DNA of 21,028 nucleotides from a bacterium (lineage in GTDB: Bacteria > CAIJMQ01 > JAADFP01): NCBI GenBank assembly GCA_027021085.1, contig JALUVB010000270.1, forward strand, positions 1-21,028. Reading direction: 5' to 3'. The translations under genes were made by a program, and so were the position numbers. Position 1 is the first letter of the stretch; every line of letters begins with the position of its first letter. Under the pieces are notes generated by a model, which worked only from the letters and a program-made list of their open reading frames with translations, searched no databases and had not been told where the DNA came from. Positions 3,766 to 20,786 of the stretch are shown here, piece by piece.

Positions 3766-3966
3766 CTAATCCCCAGGAGCTCCTCCCGACACTACTCTCC
3801 ATATCTCCACTTTATCGTCCACTTCCACCCAGTCATTTTCCGTAAGCAGGGTGTCGTCTCTTACCACAATTACCTCTTCACGATTAAGCCCAAATGCTTC
3901 CAGAATATCTTTGACTCTTTTCCTTTTCTGCCATTCCTTTACCTGATTATCAAATTTTACCTGCAT
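3766..3966 (-). CDS. TtuB/ThiS/MoaD-like sulfur carrier with extended C-terminus
   Basis: A 66-residue beta-grasp protein, the usual size for ThiS/TtuB. The ATG at 3966 has a GGAAGAGG site just upstream; a longer reading from 4032 lies inside ttuA and its extra residues do not look like the family. The gene overlaps the ttuA 3' end by 17 nt, so it is the obvious sulfur carrier for TtuA. The Gly-Gly that should end the protein is at 61-62 but is followed by APGD. Carriers of this family are activated by adenylation of a terminal glycine, so these four residues would have to be removed first. Other carriers with such tails (CysO-related and QbsE-type) are trimmed by JAMM peptidases, and one is encoded at 20373-20786. 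Confidence 0.8.
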   Translation of the reverse strand: MQVKFDNQVKEWQKRKRVKDILEAFGLNREEVIVVRDDTLLTENDWVEVDDKVEIWRVVSGGAPGD

Positions 3967-4861
3967 TCTTTGCCTCTTCCTTTCTGAAAGTTTTACAAAA
4001 GGAGCAAATCTCAAAAAGTGACGGGAAACCACAGAGCAAGCAATCTTTTAACTCCACCTTATCCTCATTCTTCCGGAAAAGATGCAGATTCTCCAGGAAC
4101 CCCCGGTAGAAAGAAAACTTAGTCCCCGGTGAACTCATCTCTATTTCATTAAGGAGATGTTTCATTCTCAAGAAGGAGGCATCCCTGGAATAGGGGCATT
4201 CCTCCCTGAGAAAAGAAATGCCGGAGAGGAAAGCATAGGCGGCTGTCTCTCTCTCGGTAAGATATATCAAAGGCTTAGCCTTTTTCTTGAGCTTTCCCTC
4301 TTCTGGCAACAGGGGAAGCTGTTTTACCAGGTAGCTTGTTCTCCAGCCCAGAATATTAGAAAGAAGCGCAGAGACCATATCGTCCAGGTTGTGACCGGTA
4401 GCTACCACGTCAAATTCCTCTTCATAGGCTACTTTGTTAAAGTAGTACCTTTTGACCATGCCGCACAGCGAACATACGGACTTGTAGGTTTGACGGCAAA
4501 AACCCCTTATGCCTTTGCCCCATTCTTCCTTAAGCGAGATTATCTTTAGCGAAAGCGCAAATTTACGCGCAAATTCTTCGCAAAACACCCGTGAATTATC
4601 CGAGTATTCATCTATTCCCAGGTCTATATAGAGCAGAGAGACATCATATCCCAGCTTGTTAAGGATATAAGATAAGGCAAGGCTGTCTTTCCCCCCCGAT
4701 ATTACCACTAAAATCTTTTCCTCTTTTTCAAACATAGCGAAATCGTGAATAGCCTTCTTCACCCTCTCTTCAATAAACTCGCAAAAATGCTCCCGGCAAA
4801 GGGGCAAATTATGCTGATAGAGCTTTATGGCTGCCTTTTCCCCGCATTTCCTGCACTTCAT
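3950..4861 (-). CDS. ttuA: TtuA/Ncs6-family tRNA 2-thiolation enzyme
   Basis: PP-loop ATPase that thiolates tRNA; in Thermus TtuA makes 2-thio-5-methyluridine at position 54, which stabilises tRNA at high temperature. At 303 residues it is full length. Visible parts: N-terminal zinc site C3, C6, C22, H25; PP-loop SGGKDS at 55-60; cluster cysteines C130, C133 and C222, the same numbers I recall for the [4Fe-4S] site of Thermus TtuA; ATGHNLDD at 154-161; C-terminal zinc site C274, C277, C286, C289. It overlaps the RseC-like gene by 4 nt at its start and the TtuB-like carrier by 17 nt at its end. The sulfur would come from the carrier, loaded by an E1 enzyme such as the one at 9180-10265. An alternative target is position 34 (Ncs6-like) or 32 (TtcA-like). 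Confidence 0.92.
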   Translation of the reverse strand: MKCRKCGEKAAIKLYQHNLPLCREHFCEFIEERVKKAIHDFAMFEKEEKILVVISGGKDSLALSYILNKLGYDVSLLYIDLGIDEYSDNSRVFCEEFARKFALSLKIISLKEEWGKGIRGFCRQTYKSVCSLCGMVKRYYFNKVAYEEEFDVVATGHNLDDMVSALLSNILGWRTSYLVKQLPLLPEEGKLKKKAKPLIYLTERETAAYAFLSGISFLREECPYSRDASFLRMKHLLNEIEMSSPGTKFSFYRGFLENLHLFRKNEDKVELKDCLLCGFPSLFEICSFCKTFRKEEAKNAGKI

Positions 4862-5262
4862 TTCCTGGCTACCTCAATAATTTCTACCTTACTCACGGTT
4901 TTCTTCCACTTGCTACGAGAGATGCCCATGGCAATGAATACTCCTATAATGAGCATACCCAGGGCCGATAAGGCCTGCAATCCCTCCTGCTTGAAGAAAG
5001 AAAATCCCAATACCGCCCCCGCCAGGAGAAAAAGCAAGGGTAAGCCAAAAGAAAGCAGGGAAAACACTGCCATTTTACCTTCCGGCATACTCAGCTTTAC
5101 TTTATCCCCTACCTGCAGGCTACCCGTATCAGGAATTTCCAGGATTTTCTCATCTCCCCTGTTGCTGCACAACTTACACTCATCGCAGAAGGAAGACCCT
5201 CCCAGCTTGATTTTCACCCAGCCTCTCCTTATCTCTTCTACTTCTCCCGTTTCTATCCTCAT
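4858..5262 (-). CDS. RseC/MucC-family (SoxR-reducing system) membrane protein
   Basis: A 134-residue protein with a soluble N-terminal beta region (1-62), two transmembrane helices (about 66-90 and 96-114) and a short charged tail. C26, C29 and C32 (C-x2-C-x2-C) lie in the N-terminal domain, as in other RseC proteins that have a cysteine cluster there. The family is linked to the Rnf-like Rsx complex that keeps SoxR reduced in enterobacteria, and to sigma-E control; its biochemical role is poorly known. Here it overlaps the PP-loop gene before it and ttuA after it by 4 nt each, so it is co-translated with RNA thiolation genes. A link to membrane electron flow for the Fe-S enzyme TtuA is possible, but is inference. 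Confidence 0.82.
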   Translation of the reverse strand: MRIETGEVEEIRRGWVKIKLGGSSFCDECKLCSNRGDEKILEIPDTGSLQVGDKVKLSMPEGKMAVFSLLSFGLPLLFLLAGAVLGFSFFKQEGLQALSALGMLIIGVFIAMGISRSKWKKTVSKVEIIEVARK

Positions 5263-6239
5263 AGCATCCTCCCTCTTTTACCAGGCTCAACCCTCACCAA
5301 TCCTTCACTTTCTCCGTTCTTCCATGTAACTTCTACTTCTTTATCCTGTCTATGCGCACTGTAAAAAGCAGCCAGGGAAGCACCATCTGAAATATCCTTC
5401 TCGGAGCATTCCCCTTCCAGGACCACCAAGGCACCTTTTCCGCCCTTTACCTGGAGAGTACATTCCTTGCCCTGCAGTAAAAATTCCAACTTCTTATTCT
5501 CTTCCTCGTTTCTTCCCACTATGGCTTTAATCCCCGAATCCAGCCGGAAATGCCTGCCGATTTTTAAAACTTCTATGTCTTTCAAGGAAAAGTCACCTTT
5601 GTGCTCAATCAAGTCCTTCATGCGCCGGGAAAAGCCGGGGTCTGTAAGCAAACAACCACCGGCCGGGGAAGGGTAATGGGTAAGCCCTATCTCCTGCGCC
5701 AAAGCCATCTGCACCTTCCTGCTTCTCCCTTCTATCTTTAGAAAATCCTCTCTCCTTACCCATCCTTCCTTCTCAGGCAGGCTGGGAGGCAAAAGTTTAG
5801 CAGAAAGAGGCCTGACTATCTTACCCTCCAGACCGGATTCCTTCTCGATAAGCTCTATAATCCTTCTTCTCTGGGACATGGGTCTCTGTCCTACCACTTC
5901 TCCGCTTACCAGGAATTTAGCGCCTTCCTCTTCCATCAATTTTTTGGCCTTCTCCCACATCATTATCTTACAGTCAATGCAGGGGTTTAATCCCTGTCCG
6001 TATCCAAAACGGGGATTCTTTACTATCCCCAGCATCTCTTCTCCTATGGGCAGCATCCTGAGGGATATCTTTAAAAATTTTACTGCATCTTTCGCGGCAC
6101 AGCCTCCATGCTTGGCTGCTTCGCAACAGCAAAAAGGAGTGCGAAAATTTATCCCTATCACCTCTATGCCCTGTATCTTCACCAGATAGGCAGCTAAGCT
6201 AGAATCCAGACCTCCAGAAATAAGTGCAAGTGCTTTCAT
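5259..6239 (-). CDS. PP-loop thiolase-like protein (MnmA/ThiI superfamily) with NFACT-R-like C-terminal domain
   Basis: A 326-residue protein predicted to modify RNA with sulfur. The N-terminal ATP-pyrophosphatase domain has SGGLDSS at 8-14. A CIDC motif at 87-90 and VSGEVVGQRPMSQ at 111-123 resemble the MnmA NPDxxC and ATGHYA regions. It has no THUMP domain, unlike standard ThiI. C37-C39 form a CCC run and C196 could be a second catalytic cysteine. The C-terminal region (about 228-315) has the NFACT-R/DUF814 pattern: VGRNEEEN at 241-248 and ASLAAFYSAHR at 287-297. This PP-loop plus NFACT-R layout is known in bacteria and archaea, often named ThiI-like, but I know of no settled substrate. It overlaps the genes on both sides by 4 nt. 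Confidence 0.83.
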   Translation of the reverse strand: MKALALISGGLDSSLAAYLVKIQGIEVIGINFRTPFCCCEAAKHGGCAAKDAVKFLKISLRMLPIGEEMLGIVKNPRFGYGQGLNPCIDCKIMMWEKAKKLMEEEGAKFLVSGEVVGQRPMSQRRRIIELIEKESGLEGKIVRPLSAKLLPPSLPEKEGWVRREDFLKIEGRSRKVQMALAQEIGLTHYPSPAGGCLLTDPGFSRRMKDLIEHKGDFSLKDIEVLKIGRHFRLDSGIKAIVGRNEEENKKLEFLLQGKECTLQVKGGKGALVVLEGECSEKDISDGASLAAFYSAHRQDKEVEVTWKNGESEGLVRVEPGKRGRML

Positions 6240-6943
6240 GGTAAATCCTTTCCTTCAATTCCGTTTATAGTAAGATTAATATCCGGATATCCATCACCGG
6301 CGGGAAGCAAACGCGTAGCCGAGATAAACTCCACATGCCCATCCACGAACAAATAACTCCTTCCTCCCTGCCATCCCCACCAGCCAGGGTCATCCTCCAG
6401 AGGTTCATGGTTACTCAACCACTCCCCCACTATTGCTTTCTTGCTGGGATACCTAACCTGGCTCAATCTCCGGGGGACAGAAGGCATCACCTTATCCGAA
6501 GCATAGGTATAAGATTTATCGTTCATGCTGTTTATCTGCCGGGGAGAATGGTAAAAACTCATAGAGTAAGCATAGGAAGTGCTCTCCCATTTCTCGGGTG
6601 CGGTGCGGTCCTGCGGGCAATAAAGGATGCTGGGATTATCCTGAGAAATATCCCTTAAAATGTATGGAGCAAGGTAACTCCTCCATCCCCTTCCCATCCA
6701 CAGCCAGTAATAGGGGGATGTAGAAACAGGGTCCCGGGCAATGGGAAATGTCTCCCTGAAATCCTGCAGATAAAGATAAAATCCATAGCCTATCTGGCGC
6801 AGATTGCTGGCACATACCGATTTCCCCGCCTGCAGTCTCGCTTTCCTCAAAGCCGGCAGAAGAAGTGCGGCAAGAAGCGAAATAATGGAAGTAACCACCA
6901 AAAGCTCCACCAGAGTAAATCCCCTTTTAACCTTTCTTATCAT
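6236..6943 (-). CDS. Type II secretion/type IV pilin-like protein (prepilin N-terminal methylation domain, DUF1559-like tail)
   Basis: Secreted or pilus-like protein. It opens with a short basic leader ending in G11 before FTLVELLVV, with glutamate at mature position 5 (numbering from a GTG at 6952), the prepilin peptidase and N-methylation signal, followed by a hydrophobic helix to about residue 35. The C-terminal part has SYLFVDGHVEFI, the H-x-DG type motif seen in the large pseudopilin families of Planctomycetes, Lentisphaerae and related genomes. I take the ATG at 6943 (235 residues); neither start has a strong ribosome site. Its end overlaps the PP-loop gene by 4 nt, so it heads the thiolation operon although its function seems unrelated. 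Two cysteines and many aromatic residues mark the extracellular domain. Confidence 0.88.
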   Translation of the reverse strand: MIRKVKRGFTLVELLVVTSIISLLAALLLPALRKARLQAGKSVCASNLRQIGYGFYLYLQDFRETFPIARDPVSTSPYYWLWMGRGWRSYLAPYILRDISQDNPSILYCPQDRTAPEKWESTSYAYSMSFYHSPRQINSMNDKSYTYASDKVMPSVPRRLSQVRYPSKKAIVGEWLSNHEPLEDDPGWWGWQGGRSYLFVDGHVEFISATRLLPAGDGYPDINLTINGIEGKDLP

Positions 6944-6984
6944 GCTCTTCACAATAAATTAGTTGCGCGTTGCCAGTTCCCTGT

Positions 6985-7000
6985 CCCGGCGCATGCCGGG
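6985..7000. repeat. Short perfect hairpin
   Basis: CCCGGC, a 4-base loop GCAT, and GCCGGG form a perfect 6-bp stem. No T-tract follows on either strand, so it is not a standard terminator. It may be a remnant of a dispersed palindromic repeat. Confidence 0.5.
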
Positions 7001-7015
7001 GTACCTATTCCCCAT

Positions 7016-7043
7016 GTTAGACTATAGACATCAGACTTTAGAC
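7016..7043 (-). repeat. Tandem 7-base array, GTCTAWR family (minus orientation)
   Basis: Four adjacent 7-base units, each ending AGAC on the plus strand (GTTAGAC, TATAGAC and so on), read as GTCTAAA-like units on the minus strand. A fifth degenerate unit continues to 7050. The partner array in the opposite orientation is at 7131-7158. Confidence 0.65.
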
Positions 7044-7079
7044 ATTATACGGGAAAGACACATGATACGGGGGCCCAAC

Positions 7080-7123
7080 TCACTATTTACTATCTTTCCT
7101 CGTTACTTGTTACCATTCACTAT
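7080..7123 (+). repeat. Composite heptamer block, second copy
   Basis: Two T-Y-ACTAT heptamers at 7080-7093, a CTTTCCTCG bridge at 7094-7102, then three heptamers at 7103-7123. The layout and the bridge sequence match the element at 31-76 and the one at 7289-7328. Confidence 0.6.
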
Positions 7124-7130
7124 TCTCCCA

Positions 7131-7158
7131 GTCTATAGTCTAAGGTCTAAAGTCTAAA
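7131..7158 (+). repeat. Tandem 7-base array, GTCTAWR family (plus orientation)
   Basis: Four adjacent 7-base units beginning GTCTA: GTCTATA, GTCTAAG and two of GTCTAAA. It is in inverted orientation to the array at 7016-7043, 87 bases away, so the two could pair into a long imperfect stem. Confidence 0.65.
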
Positions 7159-7165
7159 ATCCTGG

Positions 7166-7185
7166 ATGCCTGCTTCCGCAGGCAT
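7166..7185. repeat. Perfect 8-bp hairpin with 4-base loop
   Basis: ATGCCTGC, loop TTCC, then GCAGGCAT. On the minus strand the loop reads GGAA, a GNRA-type tetraloop. The surrounding sequence (GACAGGC..., TGTCATTCTTGC) looks like the small palindromic repeats common in candidate-phylum and deltaproteobacterial genomes. It could end transcription of the upstream cluster on the minus strand, but only a short, interrupted T-run follows. Confidence 0.55.
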
Positions 7186-7243
7186 GACAGGCGGGCAAGT
7201 TGCTTGTCATTCTTGCAAATCCCAACCTCCCTTAGAACCTCTC

Positions 7244-7278: not shown

Positions 7279-7288
7279 GTCCATCTAT

Positions 7289-7328: not shown

Positions 7329-7330
7329 TC

Positions 7331-8536
7331 TCACTTCACTTCCCGCATTCGCATGTTTTTGAAAGTAAGGCCGGATTCCGGGCCGGGTAAAGGAGCTACT
7401 GGCTCGGTGAGCAAAAAGTCACCTTTCTTAATCCACATCTTTAAAATCTCAGCTACTTCTCTTGCCCTGGCATAGCTGGAAAGACTGGCAGTGGGAACTT
7501 CTTTCCCTTTAACGGTAATCTTCCCACTCTTTAATTCCTGGTAGTTGGCTTCACCCAATGCACCAGGAATTACCTGCGGGTAGGCTTCACTGTAATCCAC
7601 TATGGGTGCATAAATCTCGCTGTCCTTTACCGCGGTATAGCGGGCAATCTCCTCATCAAGAACGGGTATGGGAACTCCGATACCCACAGTAAGCGTAACA
7701 CCATAGCCAGTCATGGTAGTACCCCTGAGCCACTCCGGAGACATCTTTTTCAAATCACCTATAACCGCCAGGGTCCCTGCTCCTCCACAGGGCACACCGT
7801 TCTCTTTTCGCTTGGCAGTGGGGTTATGCTGAGTACCCTGCCAGGCCACATATCCAATCCCCCCTCCCAGGAATATTTTTGTGCCTATTCCCAGAGTTTC
7901 ATAATAGGGGTCATTGAGAAGCGGCGACAGTTGTCCTGCACTGCAGTAATTGGCATTACCCAGATGTGGTTTCAGGATACCCATATAAGTGTATATGGTT
8001 TTATCTGAAAGGTTCACGGCAATGTTGTAATTCTGGTAGCAGTTGCGGGGGTTGAAGAGAACTGCCTCGTTTACATCCTTGATATTTATCCAGACTTTAA
8101 GTTTTTTCCTGGGGTAACAATCAGTACCATAAGTCTCTGCTTCCAGGATAATATCCTTCCCGGCTACGAATTCCTGTATTACATGCCCTCCGCCGTACTT
8201 GAAGGCTCCCGGGTGGACGGCATTGCGCGGGTCATCGTCCGGCAGGGCAGTACAACCCAGGTATATATCCACGGCTGCCCATCCTGCATAGGTGGGTACA
8301 TTATTGAGATAACACTTGCCTCCCCCTATCTTTATGCGAGGCTTGGCGTGTCCCAGGTTGATATACATTCCGCTGGAACACATAGGCCCAAAAGTTCCCG
8401 TAGTAACCACATCTACTTCCTGGCTGGCCTTTTTGGCCCCTTTCTCCTCCACAATGTCAATCATTTCCTCCGCAGTAACCACCACCACCTCTCCTTTCCT
8501 TATTTTCTCATTGATTTCTTTAATAGTTTTAGCCAT
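7331..8536 (-). CDS. DUF39/COG1900 homocysteine-biosynthesis protein (L-aspartate semialdehyde sulfurtransferase type)
   Basis: A 401-residue protein of the HcyBio (DUF39) family. In Methanosarcina the homologue MA1821, with a NIL-ferredoxin protein, supports homocysteine formation from aspartate semialdehyde and sulfide, bypassing O-acyl homoserine. Family signatures here: TTGTFGPMCSSGMYINLGH (45-63), IGGGKCYLNNVPTYAGWAAV (70-89) and TYGTDCYP (135-142). C53 and C140 lie in the segments where, as I recall, the essential cysteines of the methanogen protein are. There is no C-terminal CBS domain pair, which some relatives have. A strong AAGGAGGT site precedes the ATG. A small ORF and a NIL-only protein are just upstream, and the NIL-ferredoxin protein is at 3267-3674. 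It ends the sulfate-assimilation run. Confidence 0.9.
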   Translation of the reverse strand: MAKTIKEINEKIRKGEVVVVTAEEMIDIVEEKGAKKASQEVDVVTTGTFGPMCSSGMYINLGHAKPRIKIGGGKCYLNNVPTYAGWAAVDIYLGCTALPDDDPRNAVHPGAFKYGGGHVIQEFVAGKDIILEAETYGTDCYPRKKLKVWINIKDVNEAVLFNPRNCYQNYNIAVNLSDKTIYTYMGILKPHLGNANYCSAGQLSPLLNDPYYETLGIGTKIFLGGGIGYVAWQGTQHNPTAKRKENGVPCGGAGTLAVIGDLKKMSPEWLRGTTMTGYGVTLTVGIGVPIPVLDEEIARYTAVKDSEIYAPIVDYSEAYPQVIPGALGEANYQELKSGKITVKGKEVPTASLSSYARAREVAEILKMWIKKGDFLLTEPVAPLPGPESGLTFKNMRMREVK

Positions 8537-8908: not shown

Positions 8909-9163
8909 TCAGTCCACGATATCTCCCACGATAGGCTTTACCTCCACACCTTTCTCAAGCAGGTACTTGATTCCTTTTTCTACGTTATCTTCTTTGCCCT
9001 CTAACTCGAGCACCAATTCTCCTACCGTCTCAGTAACCCGGGCCCGGCGTATATTGGGAACTATATCGTATTTTTTTGCCATCTGGAAAGTTACCGGTTC
9101 CCTAATCAGATTTTGAGGAAAAATTAACTTAACCATTCTCTTTACCGTCTCCTTTTCAGCCAT
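8909..9163 (-). CDS. Stand-alone NIL domain protein
   Basis: An 84-residue protein made only of a NIL domain. It parallels the N-terminal domain of the NIL-ferredoxin protein at 3267-3674: VKLIFPQNLIREPVTF here matches LVLTFPPSLVNTPVTY there, and both go on with a VVPNIRRARVT / VVNILRARVT segment. The ATG at 9163 has a GGAGGAGGT site 8 nt upstream; a longer reading from 9223 would overlap the E1 fusion gene and adds a non-family leader. NIL domains occur on methionine ABC importer ATPases as ligand-binding regulatory domains, so methionine or homocysteine binding is plausible. Being near the DUF39 gene it probably serves homocysteine synthesis. Confidence 0.85.
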   Translation of the reverse strand: MAEKETVKRMVKLIFPQNLIREPVTFQMAKKYDIVPNIRRARVTETVGELVLELEGKEDNVEKGIKYLLEKGVEVKPIVGDIVD

Positions 9164-9179
9164 ATTATCTACCTCCTCC

Positions 9180-10265
9180 TTATTGCTTTGCACTACGAAG
9201 CTGGCAGAACTCTTCGTAGTCAATTAACTCCCGTATAGTGGGATTATTCCCGCAAACCTGGCAGTTTTCATTTCGCTGGATATTCACCTTGCGGAAGGTC
9301 ATATCCAGAGCATTAAAAATGAGTAGCCGGCCGTTTAAAAGGCTTCCCTTTCCCAGAATATATTTCAGCACCTCGCTGGCCTGCACCATGCCCATGATAC
9401 CAGCCACAGCCCCCAATATGCCCGCTTCCTGGCAGGAAGGCACCATGCCGGGAGGCGGAGGCTCGGGAAAGAGGCAGCGATAACAGGGCCCCTCATGCGG
9501 AACAATGGTAATCGCCTGTCCTTCAAATTTCAGGATACCAGCATGGGAAAACGGTTTTCCGGCAATAACGCAGGCATCATTCACCAGGTAGCGGGTGGGA
9601 AAGTTGTCGCTCCCATCAACTACGATGTCGTAATCTTTAATTATATCCAGGATATTTTCGGAAGTAACGCGCAGGGGATAGGTGATAATCTGCACATCAG
9701 GATTAAGAGCCAGCAGCTTTTCTTTAGCGGATTCCACCTTGAGTTTACCCACATCGGAGGTAAAATGGAGAATCTGGCGTTGTAAATTATTTAGCTCCAC
9801 CCTGTCGCTGTCCACCAGGCCAATCTGCCCCACACCGGCACTGGTTAAATAATAGGCACAGGGCGAACCCAGTCCACCGCAGCCAATAATCAAAACTTTG
9901 GCTTTGAGCAGTTTTTTCTGCCCTGCCCCCCCTACCTCGGGAAGGATTATCTGGCGGCTGTATCTTTCGATTTGTTCTTCTGTGAAGTCAATCCCGCCGG
10001 CAATTGCCGGTATGATGGAAACCTCGTCCCCATCTTTCAGTGCTGTCTTATCTCCCTGCAAGAACCGGATATCCTGCTCGTTTACGAAGAAGTTTATAAA
10101 CCGCCTCAATTTACCGTTTTCTTCGCAAAGCCTTTCCTTGATTCCGGGATACTTCTTGTCCAGGTTCTCTATTAAATCCCTGATATCCTTACCCTCACAC
10201 TCCACTTCTGTTTGGTTACCGGTTAATTTTTGCAATGGTACTGGTATCCTGACTCTAACTCCCAT
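9180..10265 (-). CDS. CysO/MoaD-like sulfur carrier fused to MoeB/ThiF-type E1 adenylyltransferase
   Basis: One 361-residue reading frame with two units. Residues 1-91 are a beta-grasp carrier ending IIPAIAGG, very like actinobacterial CysO ([26 protein letters not shown]). Residues 92-361 are an E1 enzyme: [13 protein letters not shown] at 100-112, nucleotide loop GCGGLGS at 128-134, acidic VDSD at 151-154, zinc cysteines C261, C264, C335, C338, and C278 at the place of the ThiF catalytic cysteine. E1 enzymes adenylate the terminal glycine of a carrier, but here Gly90-Gly91 runs straight into the E1, with an ATT codon and no usable internal start at the junction. The E1 may activate the TtuB-like protein and, after cleavage, its own carrier. 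Start overlaps thrC by 11 nt with a GGAGG site. Confidence 0.92.
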
Positions 10266-11505
10266 TTTTCTCTCCTCCTCTCTTCTTCATTTCTTTCTCA
10301 AAAAAGTTTAAATTCGGCTCTATCCTCATCACTTTGTCCAGCTTACTTGAAACAGCTTCCTGCGTTTTCAAACCGTTCCCTGTAATTGAAATTACAATTA
10401 ACTCGTCCGGGGGAATCCTGCCCTGTTCTATCAGCTTTTTGGCCACAGCCACTGTAACACCTCCCGCGGTTTCGGTAAATATCCCCTCGGTTCTGGCCAG
10501 TAACTTTATCCCTTCTACTATTTCTTCGTCGCTCGCCTCTTCACCCCAGCCGCCGCTGTCCATAACCGTTTTAAAAGCATAGTACCCGTCAGCCGGATTA
10601 CCAATGGCCAGGGACTTAGCAATTGTCTTTGGTTTTACCGGCTTGATTATCTCGCTCCCTTCTTTAATTGCTGTAACCACCGGAGCACAACCCTGTGCCT
10701 GGGCAGCGTATATCCTGGCATCAACCTGGTCAATTAACCCCAGCTTTTTAAGCTCGTGGAATCCTTTCCATATCTTGGAAATTAAAGACCCTCCCGCCAC
10801 CGGGACAATAATATGTCGGGGAACCCGCCAGCCAAGCTGCTCCACTATTTCATAAGCGTAAGTCTTGGAGCCTTCCGCATAATAGGGGCGGATGTTGATA
10901 TTTACAAATGCCCAGTTGTATTTATTTGCCACTTCACTGCAAAGTCTGTTTACTTCGTCGTAGTTTCCTTCCACGGCGATAACCTGCGGGGCATAAACAA
11001 GCGAAGCCACCACCTTGCCCAATTCCAGGTCAGCGGGGATAAAAACAAAACATTTGATTCTTGCCTGGGCAGATTGGGCAGAAACAGAATTTGCCAGGTT
11101 CCCCGTAGAAGCACAGGCCACCGTATCAAAACCAAATTCTTTTGCCTTGCTTATGGCTACCGAGACCACCCTATCTTTGAAAGAAAGGGTGGGGTGGGAG
11201 ACAGAATCATCCTTAATATAAAGTTCCTTCACTCCCAATTCCCTGGCTAAGTTGTCTGCCTTGACCAGGGGGGTAAAACCAGAGTGCAAGCCGACCAGGG
11301 GATTCCCGTCAATGGGTAAAAGCTCCTGGTACCGCCATAAATTTTCTGCCCGGGAGGAGATAATCTCTCTGCTTAATTTTTCTCTTATACTGGAATAATC
11401 ATAAATTACTTCCAGAGGACCAAAACAATATTCGCACACATAAAGCGGCTCCTTGGGATATTCCCTCCCACATTCTCTGCATTTTAATCCTTTTACGTAA
11501 CCCAT
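10255..11505 (-). CDS. thrC: Threonine synthase (PLP-dependent)
   Basis: Converts O-phosphohomoserine to threonine. At 416 residues it has the N-terminal zinc ribbon (C9, C12, C24, C27), the PLP lysine K110 in HPTLSFKDR, the phosphate loop [10 protein letters not shown] at 131-140 and a late glycine-rich [10 protein letters not shown] segment. It belongs to the shorter class found in archaea and many bacteria. It is inserted between two carrier fusions: 12 nt after the ThiS-cysteine synthase gene, overlapping the MoaD-E1 fusion by 11 nt. thrC next to a CysO-like carrier is also seen, as I recall, in actinobacteria. Because PLP enzymes of this fold can use sulfide in place of water, a side role in homocysteine formation is conceivable, but threonine synthesis is the default. 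Confidence 0.92.
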
Positions 11506-12695: not shown

Positions 12696-15035
12696 TTATT
12701 CAACTTTCTTTTTCACGACTACCCTGAAGAAATTTTCTACCGGCTCTATCTTTAATATTTCCTGTCCGTCATTCTGCAAACTTTTGGGAACATTTCTTAT
12801 CGGCTCTCCCTCATCAACCCAGACCTCTAAAATATCCCCTAACTTTAACTCTTCCAGCCGGAGCTTTACTTTAACATAATTGATAGGACAGGGGGTTCCC
12901 CGCAGGTCGTAGAGCATGGGTTTTTCCTGGGGCGGTACTTCTTCCTGTTTTGTCTCTTCCGCTTTAAACCTTACGGGAAAATTAAAATTACTATCCATCA
13001 ACGCATAAATCTCCTTTACTTCCCTGTATAGCCTCTCCGCATAATCGTATGCTTTCTTTCTATCTATTTTGCCCGAGACAACATCTGCATAAACCTCAGC
13101 CACATTTTCAAACTGCGGCAAAGAAATACCGGTTTTTACAAACTTATCTACAAAGGCAGCAACCGCTTCCTGCTCGTCGCGGGGATCAACTCCTTTTACT
13201 ACCAGTAAAGCCCTAACTGAATATATTAAGGCATCTCTTATTTCCTGCAGGGCAAAATCTTTTTCCCTAGCTTTTATAAGAGACTGGTTGGCAGACTCCA
13301 GGTCAGATTCTATCATATCTATCACTCCCGCGCCGCACTCTCCCTGGGTCAACCCTTCCAGGGAAAAGTCCTCTGTTCTGCCAAAGTCCACGTAGTAACT
13401 TCTGTCCTCTTCGTAAGGTGGAACAAAGGAGTACTTCTTTACCAAATCCCTCATTATTCTTTTACCTTGCGCGGCAATAAACTGGTAAACATTTCCGTCT
13501 TCCGTATTTTCCTGCAGGATAGCGATAAACTCTCCTATTAATTTGGGGGTAACGCGTGCCGGTACCACTCCGATATGCTGGGCAAGTTTTGTCTTTTCTC
13601 CGGCCAGTTTCCCTCCTATGTATATCCGGTAAAAAGGCACCGTGCGGTTATAGACCTTTCTGGCCAGACCGGAGAGAGCAATGGTTCCGGTGGGATGATG
13701 ACCGCAGGCATTGGGACAGCCATTAATGTTTATCCTTATATCCTTTAATTTTTCAATATCTATACTTCTCCTATTTAACTCGTTTACAATCTCCGGGGCC
13801 AGGGCAATAGCATTGCATATACCCAGATTACAGGTAGTAGCAGCCTTACAGCAAACAATATCCAGGATTGTCTCCGGGAACAAGTAGTCTTTCAGGCAAG
13901 AGTTGACTTCCCGGTAAACAGTATAGATTTTATCCTCCGGCACATTTGCTATTATCAGGTTCTGCCTCTGGGTGGTTCTGAAATTTACCCGGGGCAGGGA
14001 CTCGCCTATGCGGGAGAGGGCAATCAATGTCCCGGCATCAATCTCTCCGAAGGGTATCTTCAACTTGATGTAGCGGTATCCCTGCTGCTTCTGCTTGCCT
14101 GTATTGTACTTGAGAAAAAGCCGGTACTCTGCATCATCTTTGTGTAAGTTCTCCTCTTCCCGGAATTCCGGCAGGGAAGGCAGAGAAGGCAAACTATCTT
14201 TTTCTTTCAAAACTATATGTTCATTCTCCCTGGTGCGCTCCAGTTCCTGGTTATAGAGCTTAACAAAATTTTCCCATCCCATGTCTTTAATTAAAAACCT
14301 TAATCGGTTGTGATACTTGTTTTTTCTATCTCCGTGCTTGTTAAACAGATTTACCAGGGCTTTCACCACATACCCAATCTCTTCTTCCTGCACATTTTCT
14401 TTCAGAACCTTACCCACTGCACTCTTGGCTCCCATTCCTCCCCCGCACAAAACCTTAAAGCTGCCATCTTTCAGCGCAACAATTCCCATATCGTTTACCC
14501 CGCTCCCGGCACAATCCTGTGCACAGCCAGAAAATGCTATCTTGAGCTTGCGGGGAAGCGTGTAGGCTTCATCCAGCGATAACAGGTATTCGCTTAAACT
14601 CCAGACAATTTTATATACCTCGTGGTTTTCCTGGGGACATATCCCGGAAAGATAGCAGGCAGTAATATTCCTCACCGTGTTTCCGCCTCCGCCTCTGGGC
14701 GAAATATCAAATTCTTTCAGGTACTCTATTATCTTTATTGAGTTTTCGTAGGAGACATCGTGTATCTGAATATCCTGCCGGGTGGTAATATGCAGTTTTC
14801 CGTCAGCAAACCTATCCGCCGCTGTGCCTATGGCTTTTAATTGCTGCGGAGTGAGGATACCTGCCGGCACTCTCAACCTGGACATCAAGAAAGCATCTCC
14901 GCGCTGGGAATAATTTCCCCAGGGCACGCGAATACCGCGGAAGAAAGCATCTTTTAATTCGCCGCGCAGAAATTTCTCCAGCGTTTCCCCGTATTTCTGC
15001 GTATCTTCTATGATTTTCTTAGGTAATTTGAACAT
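12696..15035 (-). CDS. Ferredoxin-type siroheme sulfite (nitrite) reductase with helical and TusA C-terminal domains
   Basis: 779 residues. 1-510: two-fold repeated siroheme/[4Fe-4S] reductase core that should reduce sulfite to sulfide. Siroheme and sulfite contacts of E. coli CysI are visible: R53 or R55 in SRLRVPAG, R86 in ITTRQDIQ, R122 in VRN, K163 and K165 in LPRKLK. The usual cluster cysteines are C396, C402, C440, C444 (C-x5-C-x37-C-x3-C). The first repeat carries the same motif, C127, C133, C171, C175. 560-680: an alpha-helical region, perhaps HEPN-like. 706-779: a TusA sulfur-carrier domain with C716 in RGTPCPIN; the usual CPxP second proline is asparagine. Sulfite rather than nitrite is favoured by the flanking sat, cysteine synthase and siroheme genes. 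AAGGAGG precedes the ATG. No flavoprotein partner is seen, so ferredoxin is the likely donor. Confidence 0.9.
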   Translation of the reverse strand: MFKLPKKIIEDTQKYGETLEKFLRGELKDAFFRGIRVPWGNYSQRGDAFLMSRLRVPAGILTPQQLKAIGTAADRFADGKLHITTRQDIQIHDVSYENSIKIIEYLKEFDISPRGGGGNTVRNITACYLSGICPQENHEVYKIVWSLSEYLLSLDEAYTLPRKLKIAFSGCAQDCAGSGVNDMGIVALKDGSFKVLCGGGMGAKSAVGKVLKENVQEEEIGYVVKALVNLFNKHGDRKNKYHNRLRFLIKDMGWENFVKLYNQELERTRENEHIVLKEKDSLPSLPSLPEFREEENLHKDDAEYRLFLKYNTGKQKQQGYRYIKLKIPFGEIDAGTLIALSRIGESLPRVNFRTTQRQNLIIANVPEDKIYTVYREVNSCLKDYLFPETILDIVCCKAATTCNLGICNAIALAPEIVNELNRRSIDIEKLKDIRININGCPNACGHHPTGTIALSGLARKVYNRTVPFYRIYIGGKLAGEKTKLAQHIGVVPARVTPKLIGEFIAILQENTEDGNVYQFIAAQGKRIMRDLVKKYSFVPPYEEDRSYYVDFGRTEDFSLEGLTQGECGAGVIDMIESDLESANQSLIKAREKDFALQEIRDALIYSVRALLVVKGVDPRDEQEAVAAFVDKFVKTGISLPQFENVAEVYADVVSGKIDRKKAYDYAERLYREVKEIYALMDSNFNFPVRFKAEETKQEEVPPQEKPMLYDLRGTPCPINYVKVKLRLEELKLGDILEVWVDEGEPIRNVPKSLQNDGQEILKIEPVENFFRVVVKKKVE

Positions 15036-15047
15036 ATTTTCTCCTCC

Positions 15048-16340
15048 TTAATTCTTTAACCTTTCCAAAGCTACCAGAGAGACACCTATTGTTTTCTCTA
15101 TATCTTCTTCTCCATGGGCAAGCGAAACAAACGAGGCTTCAAACTGGGAAGGGGGGAAGTAGACCCCCTCTGCCAGCATCTGGTGAAAAAAGCGCGCATA
15201 GTGCTCTGTGTTTGACCTGAGAGCTGTTTCATAATCGCAAACTTCTTTTTCCCGGGTAAAAAATACGGTAAACATTGACCCCGCCTGGTTTACCAGTGCA
15301 TCTATTTCCAGCTTCCCTATGTGCTCCCGGATACCTTGCACGAGACGCTCTGCCCTCTTTTTAAGTATGCTGTATGCTTTCTCCCGCGAGAGAATCCTCA
15401 AGGTTGCCAGCCCGGCAGTTACACTGACCGGATTGCCGGACAAGGTGCCTGCCTGATACACCGCACCCCGGGGAGCAAGATTTTCCATGATTTCCCTCTT
15501 CCCGCCAAAAGCACCTATGGGGAAGCCTCCCCCGATGATTTTCCCTAAGCAGGTTAAATCAGGCTTAACCCCGTAAATTTCCTGCGCCCCTCCGTAAGAG
15601 ACGCGAAACCCCGTGATGACTTCGTCGAAGATAAGCACTATGCCGTAACGGTGGCAAATTTCTCTCAACCCCCTTAAAAACTCTTCTTTCGCCTTTACCA
15701 CTCCCATGTTCCCAGAAATCGGCTCAACAATTATGCAGGCTATACTCTCATGCTGCTTCTTAACTACCTCCTCTGCCATTTCCAGGTTGTTATAGGGAAG
15801 AACAAAAGTATGCCGGGTAAAATCAGCCGGGACCCCCGCACTATCCGGTCTGGCAAGAGTCGTAGCCCCTGAACCTGCCTGTACCAGGAGATAATCAGCA
15901 TGCCCATGATACGCACCGGAAAACTTGACCACCTTCGTTCTCCGCGTATAACCCCTTGCCAGGCGAATGGCACTCATACATGCTTCCGTGCCCGAATTCA
16001 CCAGGCGCACCATTTCCATGGAAGGGAAGGCACGGCGAATCTCTTCTACAAGTTCTGTCTCCAGTTTTGTAGGAGCACCAAAACTGGTTCCTTTACCAAC
16101 CGCCTCCCTGACCCTTTCAATCACTTCCGGATGAGCATGGCCTAAAATCAAGGCTCCCCAGGACATGCAGTAATCGATGTAACCCTTCCCTGCAACATCG
16201 TAAATCTTTGCTCCCTTTCCTTTCTCGATAAACAAGGGCACTCCTCCCACTGCCTTAAATGCCCTTACCGGCGAATTTACTCCTCCGGGGATACATTCTC
16301 TTGCCCTATCAAAGAGTTGCTTATTCAATCCCCTATCCAT
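15048..16340 (-). CDS. hemL: Glutamate-1-semialdehyde 2,1-aminomutase
   Basis: Second enzyme of the C5 route to 5-aminolevulinate. 430 residues, full length. The PLP lysine is K267 in [34 protein letters not shown] (114-130) and [12 protein letters not shown] (141-152) are family landmarks, and FDEVITGFR carries the PLP-ring aspartate. The start overlaps hemB by 16 nt and it ends 12 nt before the sulfite reductase, so tetrapyrrole and sulfite reductase are made together. With hemA, hemB, hemC and cobA-hemD it supplies siroheme. Confidence 0.96.
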
Positions 16341-17314
16341 TCTGCCACTCCTTTTGCCCAGTAGGTAATAATCATGTCCGCTCCCGCCCTTTTTATCGAG
16401 GTCAGGATTTCCAGTACTGCCTTCTTCTCCTCAATCCAGCTCTTTTGAGCTGCTGCCTTTACCATGCTATATTCTCCGCTCACACTGTAAGCAGAGAGAG
16501 GAAAATTAAATGCTTCCTTCACTCTCCTGATTACATCCAGATAGGAAAGAGCCGGTTTAACCATTACTATGTCCGCTCCCTCTTTTACGTCTGCTTCCAC
16601 TTCCCTTAGCGCCTCTTCCCAGTTGTGGTAATCCATCTGGTAGCTGCTTCTGTCTCCAAAGCGGGGAGAGGAATCAGCCGCTTCTCTAAACGGCCCATAA
16701 AATGCGGAAGCATACTTTGCTGCATAGGACATTATGGCTACATTCCTGTATCCGTTTCCATCCAGCGCCTCTCTTATCGCATTTACCTGCCCATCCATCA
16801 TGGCTGAGGGAGCCACCATATCTGCCCCGGCCCCAGCCTGCGAGAGGGCAATCTTCCCTAATATTTTTAGCGTTTTATCGTTGTCTATCTCAAACCTCCC
16901 GCTTTCTTTATTTTCATATCCAATAATTCCACAATGTCCATGCCTGGTATAACTGCATAGACAAACATCCGTTATCACGCCCAGGTCAGGAAATTCTTTC
17001 TTTATCTCCCGCACTGCTCTCTGCACCACCCCTTCCTGATGGTAGGCAGAAGAAGCAATCTCATCCTTGCTTTCAGGCACGCCAAAGATGAGCACGGCAG
17101 GGATACCGAGTTTTTTCACTTCTTCTACTTCCCGCTTCAAACTGTCAACAGAAAACCGATAAACTCCCGGCATGGAAGGAATCTCTTCTTTTCTTCCCTT
17201 TCCCTCCACTACAAAAATTGGCAGTATAAGGTCGCTTACTAAAAGCGTATTCTCCCGCAATAATTCCCTGAAAAACCCCTTGCTTCTCAAACGTCTCAGG
17301 CGAGTAAATTCCAT
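16325..17314 (-). CDS. hemB: Porphobilinogen synthase (5-aminolevulinate dehydratase)
   Basis: Joins two 5-aminolevulinates to porphobilinogen. 329 residues, full length. The Schiff-base lysines are K200 ([15 protein letters not shown]) and K253 ([10 protein letters not shown]). The metal site is the three-cysteine zinc type: C118, C120, C128 in [13 protein letters not shown], as in E. coli, not the aspartate-rich magnesium type. The start lies 19 nt inside the cobA-hemD gene, with a GGAGG site; the end overlaps hemL by 16 nt. Confidence 0.96.
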
Positions 17315-18702
17315 TTGCGTGCTTCCCTCCTGGTTACCGGCCCTATCGTTCTTACCTTAATTTTTTGTGCTGGCCTGCCATACCTCTTTACGAAATTACG
17401 CACCGTGGAAGGGCTGGTAAATACTATTTCATCAAAGAAATCAAAATCCAGGTCCGGTAAATTATCCGGCATTACATTATGATAAGCCACACAGGGAACA
17501 ACCCGGGCAGAAAGGTTTCTCAAGCCTTCCGTTAATCCCTTATCTGCAATATCAGAACGGGGGAGAAGAATACTGGCTCCTTTAATCCCCTTTTTCTTAA
17601 ATTCCATAATCAGCCCCCGGGAAGATTCTTTCTCGGGCACGAGGTCTGCAGAAATGCCATATTCTCTTAATTTCCCCGCGGTAGAACCTCCGATAGCCGC
17701 TATTTTTACCCCTTTAAGCACCCGCGCATCAAGCCCCATTTTGAAAAGCTCCCGGAAAAAATACAGCACCCCAAAGCGGCTGGAAAAAACAATCCAGTCA
17801 AAAGATTCTGCCTTCTTGATTAAGTCATCCATTTCCCTGTAGTCTTTCAGCGGCTTTATCTCAATTAAGGGAAGATGAAAGATTACTCCCTTCTCAAAAA
17901 ACCTCTCTGAAGATATGCCGGTAAAAAGAATTTTCTTGCTCCTCCTGAACCAATTAAAACTTCTTTCCTTCTTTACCACTTCGCCAATAATCACTATTGC
18001 CGGGGCAGAAATTTTCTCCGCCGCAGCTTTCTCATAAATCCCCTCCAGGCTGCCTACAACAAGCTTCTGCCCCATATCACTCACCCGGGAAATAACCGCT
18101 GCCGGCGTTTCCGGCTTCTTTCCGCAGAGAATCAAGATCTCTGTCAGGGAAGACAGGTTTTCCACTGCCATGTACAGGACAATAGTATCTACCCGAGCAA
18201 CTTCCTTCCAATCAATATACCCTCCCTCTTTCCGGGGGGCTTCATGTCCGGTGGCAAACAACACAGCAGAAGAGATACCCCGGGCAGTAAGGGGAATACC
18301 GCTAAAACAGGCAGCAGCGCTTGCCGCTGTAACTCCCGGGATAACAGAAAATTCTATCCTGTTTTTAGCCAAAGCCTCCATTTCTTCCGCTGCCCTTCCA
18401 AATATAGAAGGGTCTCCGCTCTTTAGCCGCACCACCCTTTTCCCTTCCTTTGCTTTTTCCACCATTAACTCGTTTATCTTATCCTGCCTTGCATTATAAT
18501 CACGGCTGCCTTTTTTTCCCCCTAACAACTCCTCCGCACAGATTTGCTCTGCTCCCGCATCCGCGTGCTGCAAAATCGCCCTGCCCACGAGCCCATCATA
18601 AATAACCACTTCTGCCTGCTGCAAAATCTTCAGCCCCTTCCAGGTAATCAAACCAGGGTCACCGGGCCCTGCTCCCACCAGGAACACCTTGCCTTTAGCC
18701 AT
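17296..18702 (-). CDS. cobA-hemD: Uroporphyrinogen-III C-methyltransferase / uroporphyrinogen-III synthase fusion
   Basis: A 468-residue bifunctional enzyme that closes hydroxymethylbilane to uroporphyrinogen III (HemD) and methylates it to precorrin-2 (CobA/SUMT). Residues 1-245 are [16 protein letters not shown] at 9-20, [14 protein letters not shown] at 90-103, ATGHE at 150-154. Residues 255-468 are HemD, with the family-typical IVFSSRFGV and [10 protein letters not shown] segments. The fusion is common in Clostridia and deltaproteobacteria-like genomes. It begins 8 nt inside hemC and ends 19 nt inside hemB. CobA activity pushes the pathway toward siroheme or B12 rather than heme. The dehydrogenase/chelatase that finishes siroheme is not in this window. 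Confidence 0.95.
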
Positions 18703-19396
18703 TTATTCTCCCAAAAAACGTAATTAACTCCCTATCTTCCTTCCTCGTTTCCACTGCCAGCCGTCCCTGCAAGGGATGGGGAGTAAGAATCCGGAAAGGT
18801 ATCCTCTGGCTTATTCTATCCTCCAGCCCCAGACGAATCAGCCCCGCCGCAGCCAGCACCAGTGCCTCGTATTCACCCCTGTCTAACTTTTCAATTCTTT
18901 CCTCGATATTTCCCCGGATATCGGTTACCTTTATGTCCGGCCGGTATCTCTTTATCGCCTCCTTGCGCCGCACGCTTGAAGTTCCCAGGCGTATCCCGGG
19001 GGGGAGCTTCTCCAAAGACCCCGCTGATTTCAGGGAAGGATGCACCACCAATACATCGTATGGGTCTATTGAGCGGGTTAAAGCAGCAATAACCAATCCC
19101 TCGGGTATTCTCTCAGGCAAATCCTTGGCACTGTGCACAGCAACATCTATCTCCTTATCCAGCAGAGCCCTCTCAATGGTGCCGGTAAAGAAATCCGTCC
19201 CATCCACCCGGGAAATGGGGGTTTCTTTATCCAGATCTCCCCGGGTATTATACACTTTCACCTCAAACTCAATCTTTCCTTTCCCCAATAACCCCAGCAC
19301 CTCCTCAACCTGCTTTCTGGCTAACCGGCTGGGACGCGTGCCAACTCTAAGCCTGGGATATTGGGCACTAAAGGCGGGGTATCCATGCGAGACCAT
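18695..19396 (-). CDS. hemC: Hydroxymethylbilane synthase, short form lacking domain 3
   Basis: Porphobilinogen deaminase, but only 233 residues instead of about 300. Domains 1 and 2 are well conserved: RVGTRPSRLARKQ at 17-29, HSAKDLPE at 88-95 with the catalytic aspartate D92, GTSSVRRKEAIKRYRPDIKV at 138-157, DIRGN and LAAAGLIRLGLEDRI. The protein stops after PLQGRLAVETRKEDRELITFF, where domain 3 should begin. The cysteine that holds the dipyrromethane cofactor (in a GGC-x-x-P motif) is therefore absent. cobA-hemD begins 8 nt before the stop, so no room exists for the missing part. The ATG at 19396 lies 76 nt inside hemA with GGAG just upstream; no later in-frame start precedes the domain. 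Either the lineage uses a reduced enzyme or activity is impaired. Confidence 0.88.
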   Translation of the reverse strand: MVSHGYPAFSAQYPRLRVGTRPSRLARKQVEEVLGLLGKGKIEFEVKVYNTRGDLDKETPISRVDGTDFFTGTIERALLDKEIDVAVHSAKDLPERIPEGLVIAALTRSIDPYDVLVVHPSLKSAGSLEKLPPGIRLGTSSVRRKEAIKRYRPDIKVTDIRGNIEERIEKLDRGEYEALVLAAAGLIRLGLEDRISQRIPFRILTPHPLQGRLAVETRKEDRELITFFGRING

Positions 19397-20373
19397 AATT
19401 TCTCCGTTTCCTCCTTAATAATTATCCTTGCTTTCTCCGCTTCCTTCTTTCTCATTTTATAATTCTCTGCAATAATCAAATGGAGAGTATCCAGGTCGTA
19501 TAAAAAGACATTATCCACACCCTTTATCCGCGGGTCTATATCACGAGGCAGGGCCAGGTCCATCATGCACAACGGCTCTTTTCTGTTTTTCATTACTTCC
19601 TGCACCAGTTCTTTTTTCAAGATTAAATGCGGGCTGGAGGTGGCGCTGATAACGATATCCGCACTTTCAACCTCCTTCTCCAGGTGGTCAAACCTTACCG
19701 CTTTCCCACCTATCCTTTCGGCAAGTTCCACTGCTTTCTCGTAGGTGCGGTTTGCCACAAAAGTTCCTGATATACCCTTCTGCATTAAATACTTCACCAC
19801 CAGTTCACCCACCTTGCCGGTTCCAATAATCAAGATTCTCTTGCCTTCCAATTCTCCCCATAAGTTCTCCAGCATCTTCAGGGCTACACTCCCCACCGAG
19901 ACATTTCCCGCCGAGATTTTAGTCTTCCGGCGTACAATCTTCCCCACTTCCATTGCTTTCTGAAACAATTTATTAAAGTGCCGACCGGTGCTTCCTGCCT
20001 GCTTTGCCTGGAAATAAGCCTCCTTCACCTGGGATAGAATCTGGTTTTCTCCCATGACCTGGGAATCCACCCCGCTGGCCACGGAAAAAAGATGCCTCAC
20101 CACATCTTTATTTTCCAGGAAATAAAAATACTCCGGGAGATAATCCTGCAAATGCAGTTCCTCTTGCAAAAATTCCCGCGCTGCACCCGGAGAAGCTGCA
20201 GCAACATACACTTCTGTGCGATTGCAGGTAGAAAGAATTACCAGTTCATCAATTACTTCACTCCCGGAAAATTTAACCAACATTTGTTCCACCTTCCGGC
20301 GAGAAAAGGAAAACCTCTCCCGCACCTTTAAAGGCGCACTCCGGTAATTTATTCCCCAGAGGACAAGATTCAT
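19321..20373 (-). CDS. hemA: Glutamyl-tRNA reductase, short form lacking the dimerisation domain
   Basis: First enzyme of the C5 route, reducing glutamyl-tRNA to glutamate-1-semialdehyde with NADPH. 350 residues against the usual 410-440. The catalytic cysteine is C50 in LSTCNRTEVY; GENQILSQVKEAY at 108-120 and the nucleotide loop IGTGKVGE at 183-190 are intact. The connecting helix (MRKKEAEKARIIIKEETEKL) is present, but the chain ends about 20 residues later, so the roughly 100-residue C-terminal dimerisation domain is missing. The last 76 nt overlap hemC. GGAGG precedes the ATG, which overlaps the JAMM gene stop by 1 nt. Confidence 0.92.
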   Translation of the reverse strand: MNLVLWGINYRSAPLKVRERFSFSRRKVEQMLVKFSGSEVIDELVILSTCNRTEVYVAAASPGAAREFLQEELHLQDYLPEYFYFLENKDVVRHLFSVASGVDSQVMGENQILSQVKEAYFQAKQAGSTGRHFNKLFQKAMEVGKIVRRKTKISAGNVSVGSVALKMLENLWGELEGKRILIIGTGKVGELVVKYLMQKGISGTFVANRTYEKAVELAERIGGKAVRFDHLEKEVESADIVISATSSPHLILKKELVQEVMKNRKEPLCMMDLALPRDIDPRIKGVDNVFLYDLDTLHLIIAENYKMRKKEAEKARIIIKEETEKLWSRMDTPPLVPNIPGLELARVPAG

Positions 20374-20786
20374 TATTCCTCCTCGATTATTTGCAGCTCT
20401 TCTTCGCTAATCTTATTATCCTTTATCCTGAATGACCTTACCTCCTTCACCTCCCCTGCAAAGAGAGATAAGATTAAATAAGAAGCATCCGGATAAAAAG
20501 CCAACTCCAAATCCCTCCGGGAGGGATAGGCAACCGTATTAATATGCGAGTGATAAATAGCTACCATCTCCAGGTTAAGCTGTCGCATCTCCTTAAAAAC
20601 CCGCAATTGCTCCTCAGGCTTCATAAAGTAACATATCTGCGGCTTATCCGAGACATTTTCCATGGGGTACACCTTCTCCACCACTCCATCCTTACCGGAT
20701 AGTATCCCGCAGGCTTCGTAGGGGTACCCCTTTTTACAATGCTCTATAATCTTTTGATACTCTGATTTTTTTATTTTAATTCCCAT
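20373..20786 (-). CDS. JAMM/M67-family zinc metallopeptidase (Mec+/RadC-like Mov34 fold)
   Basis: A 137-residue single-domain JAB1/MPN+ peptidase. All metal and catalytic residues are present: E24 in [10 protein letters not shown]79 and H81 in YHSH, S89 and D92, giving H-x-H-x7-S-x2-D. Bacterial proteins of this size, such as Mec+ of Mycobacterium, QbsD and HcyD, cut after the Gly-Gly of ubiquitin-like sulfur carriers, either to expose the terminus for activation or to release cysteine from CysO. The ATG at 20786 has an AGGAAG site; a start at 20816 would lie inside sat. It overlaps sat by 11 nt and hemA by 1 nt. The three tail-blocked carriers in this window are its obvious candidate substrates. 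Confidence 0.92.

Follow-up and report, generated by a model that had tools for sequence, protein, structure and literature searches.

Ubiquitin-like sulfur carriers fused through Gly-Gly to a cysteine synthase and an E1 enzyme, beside a JAMM peptidase, in a bacterial sulfate assimilation cluster

Results

Three blocked carriers and one JAMM peptidase

The window analysed here is a 21,028-nucleotide stretch of bacterial DNA (contig JALUVB010000270.1 of assembly GCA_027021085.1; its genome is called G000), and it carries a gene module for assimilating sulfate into amino acids by way of ubiquitin-like sulfur carriers. All genes of this cluster lie on the minus strand in the list of open reading frames (ORFs). 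Two of the carriers, a ThiS and a CysO-like MoaD, run through their Gly-Gly (GG) ends into an enzyme and a third ends in a short tail, while a JAMM/MPN+ metallopeptidase is encoded in the same cluster. An earlier note on this DNA had pointed out the three blocked GG ends, and sequence and profile searches confirmed each of them.

The first fusion (9180-10265, 361 amino acids) joins the CysO-like MoaD to a MoeB/ThiF-type E1 (Pfam ThiS plus ThiF), with matches to the ThiS/MoaD family at residues 5-91 (1.9e-18) and to ThiF/E1 at residues 102-337 (5.8e-87). Its MoaD domain matches the CysO structure 3DWG (4.4e-19), and ThiF, Uba4 and MoeB were top-ranked in a Foldseek fold search of the whole protein. 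At the junction, GG occupies residues 90-91 and the E1 starts directly after the carrier's last residue; the codons of Gly90 and Gly91 (9993-9998) mark the proposed cleavage point. The protein ends after ThiF and has no C-terminal rhodanese, which is present in the Omnitrophota fusions.

The second fusion (11518-12678, 386 amino acids; Pfam ThiS plus PALP) consists of ThiS at residues 5-68 (3.3e-11), with GGG at 66-68, a linker of ~12 residues and a cysteine synthase (2.2e-79). The synthase is of CysK type, scoring 463 against TIGR01139 cysK (cut-off 351) and 306 against TIGR01138 cysM, under its cut-off of 394. The junction reads ...FFMGGG-CLDERKEKKCGVKVANNVLELIF..., and the proposed cleavage point lies at the codons GGA GGA GGA of Gly66-Gly67-Gly68 (12475-12483), part of an MGGG kept in both solo and fused ThiS.

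The third carrier is a 66-amino-acid TtuB/SAMP2-like protein (3766-3966; SAMP2 5.5e-7, with a weak match to the ThiS profile) that ends ...VVSGG-APGD; ATG at 3966 is its most likely start, and the listed ORF, 3766-4032, begins upstream of this, inside ttuA. Its partner is a TtuA-like tRNA 2-thiolation enzyme (3950-4861; ATP_bind_3 and TtuA_LIM_N, 1.4e-8) that matches NF049949 at 7.4e-102, below that model's cut-off. The two have the features of a TtuA/TtuB pair, namely a TtuA with an N-terminal zinc domain beside a ubiquitin-like protein with GG near its end, here followed by APGD.

The JAMM peptidase (20373-20786, 137 amino acids; Prok-JAB 1.5e-23) gives the only Prok-JAB match over the cut-off in the window genome. 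The earlier note's description of it as complete and beside sat held on both counts: its motif is full (E24...H79-S-H81-x7-S89-x2-D92), with E24, H79, S80, H81, S89 and D92 invariant in an alignment of 15 relatives, and the truncated neighbouring gene (20776-21028, cut by the window edge) is the C-terminal end of ATP sulfurylase (2.5e-21). The closest solved structures are 2KKS (3.4e-24) and P. furiosus JAMM1, 5LDA (3.1e-12). Genomes with the ThiS-CysK fusion have hemA close to the JAMM gene, even where the two are on a contig apart from the fusion, and hemA adjoins JAMM in fusion-bearing Elusimicrobiota and Omnitrophota. Three Elusimicrobiota (L207/G147, L210/G162 and L213/G151) have a JAMM with a variable in-frame insert of SPVDEPKGSIPNEPKGSTPVG-like repeats, fused C-terminally to what by eye resembles an ArsC/low-molecular-weight phosphatase domain.

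Both fusions recur without stops and at 93-94% identity in G001, a genome of the same genus with the same sat-JAMM-hemA order; its junctions are identical, which rules out an assembly error or a chance open frame. The TtuB-like protein ends in GG-SSGD in G001 and in a bare GG-stop in G002, of the same family. Other carriers in the window genome were sought by homology only, and this search found no second MoaD, E1 or CysK at E≤1e-10. The E1 of 9180-10265 thus appears to be the only clear MoeB/ThiF-type E1 of this genome, and the carriers, E1, CysK and JAMM of the cluster are probably the cell's main set.

A fixed Gly-Gly with variable continuations

Relatives of the MoaD domain were gathered by similarity to the E1 or to the whole fusion and from 80 named loci. 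A scan of the named loci alone is partly circular (one search pattern contained AGG), and it was checked against sets whose members had been collected for their likeness to the E1, to CysK or to a whole fusion rather than for the GG motif. GG was present in every CysO-like MoaD examined, followed by a stop codon (all cyanobacteria and others), by tails of K, IRA, SSCRI, MAEYHR, LVDPGGPGCQDGPGVLGGPGGPRDSG or longer, by a NIL domain (seven genomes or loci: G017, G020, G026, G035, L077, L078 and L120), by a rhodanese and then E1 (G049), by E1 plus rhodanese (the Omnitrophota G390, G413, G681 and G595, and G367 by search table) or by E1 alone (the window genus). A supposed MoaD-E1 fusion in G011 was dropped because a stop follows GG-TH. 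In ThiS of related operons, GGG is followed by a stop, R, Q, QA, AA, REA, AWA, QR, N, ELF, ECPTN or CysK. A constant GG with anything after it is the pattern that a cut after GG would be expected to give.

Two further observations concern these carriers. MoaD-NIL fusions (L077 10001-10519, L120 10001-10513, L058, L064, L066 and L070) and, in many operons, a separate NIL gene after MoaD or E1 suggest that the NIL partner belongs to the carrier system. In G044 (L006 1490-1700), the ThiS gene has an apparent frameshift in an A-run and its GGG-ECPTN end overlaps the cysK start; E1 and RadC-like JAB matches in this genome are weak, and the system there is possibly decaying.

Co-occurrence of JAMM with fused carriers

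The earlier note expected carrier fusions and a JAMM peptidase to occur together across genomes, and took a fusion without any JAMM gene as the case that would refute it. Each of the 19 genomes in which a carrier is fused (G000, G001, G064, G124, G127, G065, G390, G413, G681, G595, G367, G049, G017, G020, G026, G035, G061, G062 and G090) has a Prok-JAB match at E≤1e-16, so the expected co-occurrence was borne out and no refuting case appeared in this sample, outside which the published thaumarchaeal MoaD-E1 fusions lie. RadC-like proteins (220-260-residue frames, E of about 1e-4 to 1e-6) were not scored as JAMM. The background frequency is 33 of 247 Elusimicrobiota (13%) and 100 of 384 Omnitrophota (26%), against which the fusion genomes are enriched (hypergeometric 0.002 and 2e-5, respectively). 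JAMM also tracks the E1 family across Omnitrophota (88 genomes with both, 29 with E1 only, 12 with JAMM only and 255 with neither; Fisher 3e-47), and it adjoins carriers whose GG is already free at L060, L063, L076 and L134.

Repeated origin and predicted structure of the fusions

The ThiS-CysK fusion occurs in the window genus, in the Elusimicrobiota G064, G124 and G127 and in the Omnitrophota L082/G065. E1 and CysK trees place the window near Elusimicrobiota and Omnitrophota; six relatives were found within the window genome's own class. The CysK tree puts the pair from the window genus within a group of unfused CysK of ThiS-CysK operons (support 100/100), away from the Elusimicrobiota fusions, which form their own clade (100/99). 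In the E1 tree, MoaD-E1 fusions occupy three different positions. By these placements the ThiS-CysK fusion arose at least twice, with L082 a possible third event, and the MoaD-E1 fusion at least three times. The parent arrangement is seen in collinear unfused operons (L080, L082, G162 and G044), for example MoaD-GG-stop then E1 in L080 and ThiS-GGG-N-stop then CysK in G162, and in some unfused operons the GG codons also resemble a ribosome-binding site for the gene that follows. Six Nitrospirota operons (L110, L117, L125, L131, L134 and L147) have two E1 genes from different clades of the E1 tree, one beside ThiS-CysK and the other beside ThrC-MoaD-NIL, which suggests that the two E1s are carrier-specific.

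AlphaFold2 (AF2) models of both fusions have two confident domains and, between them, a low-confidence hinge that contains the GG (residues 89-94 in MoaD-E1 and 65-79 in ThiS-CysK), a placement that fits accessibility of the GG in the predicted structures.

A threonine synthase paralog linked to MoaD

Between ThiS-CysK and MoaD-E1 lies a threonine-synthase-like gene (10255-11505). The thrC-moaD pair is conserved across phyla, being seen in cyanobacteria, Nitrospirota, Omnitrophota and others. All 15 tested genomes with the MoaD-linked copy have a second, more ordinary ThrC elsewhere, and the linked copy is absent from both tested genomes in which ThiS has no MoaD beside it (G024 and G032). Active-site motifs of the linked copy are altered (the stretches compared include STGNLANS and NSVNPYRLEGQKT). 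On this comparison, the gene is a dedicated second ThrC paralog and not the housekeeping ThrC. In cyanobacteria, a ThrC assigned to a 'distinctive lineage' and accompanied by a canonical ThrC2 has been reported as a threonine synthase/deaminase (PMC12172450); it may or may not correspond to the MoaD-linked copy. We infer that the linked ThrC may take sulfur from the MoaD thiocarboxylate, making it a candidate thiocarboxylate-dependent pyridoxal phosphate (PLP) synthase.

The surrounding cluster

From the right edge of the window, the gene order is the sat C-terminus, JAMM, hemA, hemC, cobA-hemD, hemB, hemL, siroheme reductase-TusA, ThiS-CysK, the threonine-synthase-like gene, MoaD-E1, a NIL-domain protein and HcyB/DUF39, followed further left by the TtuA/TtuB pair, a NIL-ferredoxin protein, Thi4 and IscS. 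The hem block (hemL, hemB, cobA-hemD, hemC and hemA, 15048-20373; ORFs named by inspection, in the same order in G001) presumably supplies tetrapyrrole for siroheme. The siroheme sulfite/nitrite reductase (12696-15035; NIR_SIR 9.9e-45) has a C-terminal TusA (8.4e-17), which puts a persulfide carrier onto the reductase itself; the fusion is the likely sulfide or sulfur source for the carriers.

The NIL-domain protein (8909-9223; NIL 1.7e-16) overlaps the end of the E1 gene, and the HcyB/DUF39 homocysteine synthase lies at 7331-8536 (HcyBio 1.4e-156). The NIL-ferredoxin protein (3267-3674; NIL 3.6e-15 plus Fer4) belongs to the DUF39 homocysteine pathway (PMC5764234). Two other genes stand among these: a protein resembling type IV pilins or pseudopilins that has a methylation motif at its N terminus (6236-6952) and, between IscS and Thi4, a DUF6775 'probable metallopeptidase' (1257-2009), which by eye keeps archaemetzincin-like cysteines and lacks HExxH, and is probably inactive.

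Discussion

A peptide bond at a carrier's last glycine excludes both adenylation and thiocarboxylation, and uncut carriers therefore cannot work. Ubiquitin-like proteins fused via GG to a partner enzyme, with a free GG needed for function, are known from molybdopterin synthesis: HvJAMM1 activates SAMP1-MoaE in vivo (PMC4443979), DRJAMM/DR0402 cuts MoaD-MoaE to a C-terminal Gly (PMC8832034) and MoaX needs cleavage at GG (PMC4326299), so that a JAMM is the cutting enzyme in two of these cases. The window fusions share the internal GG at the end of a ubiquitin-like domain followed by a partner enzyme; they differ in that the partner is a PLP enzyme or an E1 instead of MoaE, in a setting other than molybdopterin synthesis. 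Since uncut carriers would be non-functional and JAMM precedents exist in HvJAMM1 and DRJAMM, we favour maturation by JAMM and think it probable that both fusions are precursors to be cut after GG. Trimming of the TtuB-like tail is held less surely than cleavage of the fusions, because that tail is of four residues and genus-specific.

Cleavage, with its site and agent, is inferred, as are the chemistry of loading and the partner of each carrier. ThiS and the CysO-like MoaD would be synthesised as the N-terminal part of a larger precursor, and the TtuB-like carrier with its four-residue tail; a JAMM cut after GG would then give carriers with a free terminal glycine and release CysK and E1 as separate enzymes. 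Adenylation of the carriers would fall to the one E1, and their thiocarboxylate sulfur would come from sulfite reductase/TusA or from a desulfurase. ThiS would hand sulfur to CysK for cysteine, TtuB to TtuA for tRNA and MoaD, probably, to the adjacent threonine-synthase-like paralog; like Mec+, JAMM may also split carrier adducts and so set their amino acid free. The full version, in which one JAMM matures three carriers feeding ThiS-CysK, TtuB-TtuA and a MoaD-ThrC paralog that acts as an undescribed thiocarboxylate-dependent PLP synthase, is put forward only tentatively. The fusions themselves may have formed by loss of the gene boundaries in ThiS-CysK and MoaD-E1 pairs, tolerated where a processing peptidase was already present. 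Because linkers are unconserved, fusion is patchy and JAMM also stands beside unfused systems, the simplest history would be that JAMM made boundary loss harmless.

Several results weigh against maturation of the fusions by JAMM. Among E1-bearing Omnitrophota, JAMM is present in 8 of 8 fusion genomes and in 88 of 117 overall (p=0.09), a weak enrichment because JAMM accompanies unfused systems too; across 50 named genomes, it occurs in 26 of 28 with carrier tails versus 15 of the remaining 22 (p=0.03, or 0.08 at a stricter cut). Tailed carriers are found in draft genomes in which no JAMM was detected (L085/G067, L097/G077 and G037) or in which there are only weak RadC-like matches (G038, G257 and G044), so a tail may not always imply JAMM, or these metagenome-assembled genomes may be incomplete. 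Few alignment rows span the fusion junctions, which by itself lowers AF2 confidence there, and the passages on MoaX in PMC4326299 name no JAMM as the enzyme that cuts it.

We judged it improbable that the fusions remain uncut, with ThiS and MoaD as tethered docking or regulatory domains and other, free proteins as the real carriers. The thaumarchaeal MoaD-E1 fusions form stable gene families (PMC11237513), and archaeal Jab genes are seldom beside ubiquitin-like genes (PMC2948915), both of which would suit such a role. Yet every fused copy keeps a GG that would be useless without a free carboxyl group, the homology search of the window genome yielded neither another MoaD at E≤1e-10 nor another clear MoeB/ThiF-type E1, and MoaX and SAMP1-MoaE are inactive when uncut. 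Internal translation starts, which would give free CysK and E1, make the fusions partial read-through products and leave only the carriers in need of cleavage, seem unlikely as well: the GG(G) codons (GGAGGAGGA) do resemble a ribosome-binding site and precede the downstream start in the relatives G044 and L082, and a near-cognate codon at the expected start (CTG in ThiS-CysK, ATT in MoaD-E1) is kept in G001, but neither window fusion retains an ATG, GTG or TTG where the old start stood, initiation at CTG or ATT is rare, and internal starts would still leave the carriers blocked.

The role of the peptidase itself can also be read otherwise. It might be mainly a Mec+-type adduct hydrolase or a TtuB-conjugate isopeptidase, with another protease cutting the precursors; its position beside free-GG carriers at four loci, the release of Cys from CysO by Mec+ (PMC3227635) and the aberrant TtuB conjugates of a T. 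thermophilus JAMM mutant (PMC3980101) speak for this. We nevertheless find it doubtful, as one enzyme could do both jobs (the bond after GG is the same, and HvJAMM1 acts on linear and isopeptide bonds) and no other convincing processing peptidase was found in the window, where the DUF6775 protein by eye lacks HExxH. Finally, the earlier note read the cluster as 'protease-gated' and the stoichiometry as fixed; on such a reading, selection would have favoured fusion for putting sulfur loading under the control of JAMM and for keeping carrier and enzyme at 1:1. The presence of one JAMM for three blocked carriers and its linkage, in genomes with fusions, to hemA or sat agree with this idea, to which we give little weight: tails and linkers are unconserved, ranging from one or two residues up to whole domains, relatives without the fusions retain the same JAMM, and fusion is patchy within phyla. 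A tolerated fusion therefore fits better than an evolved gate, and the gating claim was not upheld; maturation by JAMM after GG remains the reading that we prefer.

The window gene set fits the class 4e sulfur-assimilation operons of Iyer, Burroughs and Aravind (2006), in which a JAB was predicted to free fused ThiS/MoaD (PMC1779556), better than the CysO/Mec+/MoeZ/CysM system. Shared with class 4e are ThiS/MoaD, JAB, a rhodanese-less E1, TusA, ATP sulfurylase and sulfite reductase, all in one 21-kb window; the same study reported a ThiS-sulfite reductase fusion. In contrast to class 4e, the window has two or three carriers, fused to CysK and E1, and homocysteine would be made via HcyB/DUF39 rather than O-acetylhomoserine sulfhydrylase, an enzyme that is absent from the window ORFs and that class 4e operons may not all require. 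The likeness to M. tuberculosis CysO/Mec+/MoeZ/CysM (PMC3227635) drawn in the earlier note is approximate: the CysO-like carrier, JAMM, MoeB-type E1 and PLP synthase correspond, whereas the window MoaD is fused to an E1 without rhodanese and the synthase is of CysK rather than CysM type and is fused to a separate ThiS.

MoaD-MoeB and MoaD-MoeB-rhodanese proteins, the former with the architecture of 9180-10265, have been catalogued in Thaumarchaeota, Poseidoniales, Rokubacteria, NC10 and Acidobacteria, and the Thaumarchaeota fusion of a ubiquitin-like protein to E1 was noted already in 2010, in passages (PMC11237513, PMC2948915) that make no link to JAMM or cysteine synthesis. The window protein, unlike the fusions described in those passages, has a CysO-like carrier and lies within a sulfate assimilation cluster. 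In the Wolinella HcyS/HcyD/HcyF system, reportedly described by Krishnamoorthy and Begley in 2011, a JAMM trims carrier residues beyond GG before thiocarboxylation; HcyS carries a short tail there, not a whole enzyme, and the partner is a homocysteine synthase. MetY, the partner of HcyS/HcyD, was not found among the window ORFs searched, which have HcyB instead. No description of a ThiS-CysK fusion was found in the literature searched, which lacked most subscription journals; in that literature this fusion is undescribed, while the JAMM role had been predicted and MoaD-MoeB fusions catalogued earlier.

With a blocked last glycine barring loading, the recurrence of natural fusions through GG hints strongly, and in a testable way, at bacterial JAMM peptidases as maturases for sulfur transfer, in a role comparable to the processing of ubiquitin precursors. 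The ThiS-CysK fusion carries the idea of a fusion precursor from molybdopterin synthesis to amino acid synthesis. The pairing of MoaD with a second ThrC points to an enzyme without an assigned function in many phyla and, if the tentative assignment is true, a MoaD-ThrC synthase would be common to cyanobacteria, Nitrospirota, Omnitrophota and other phyla.

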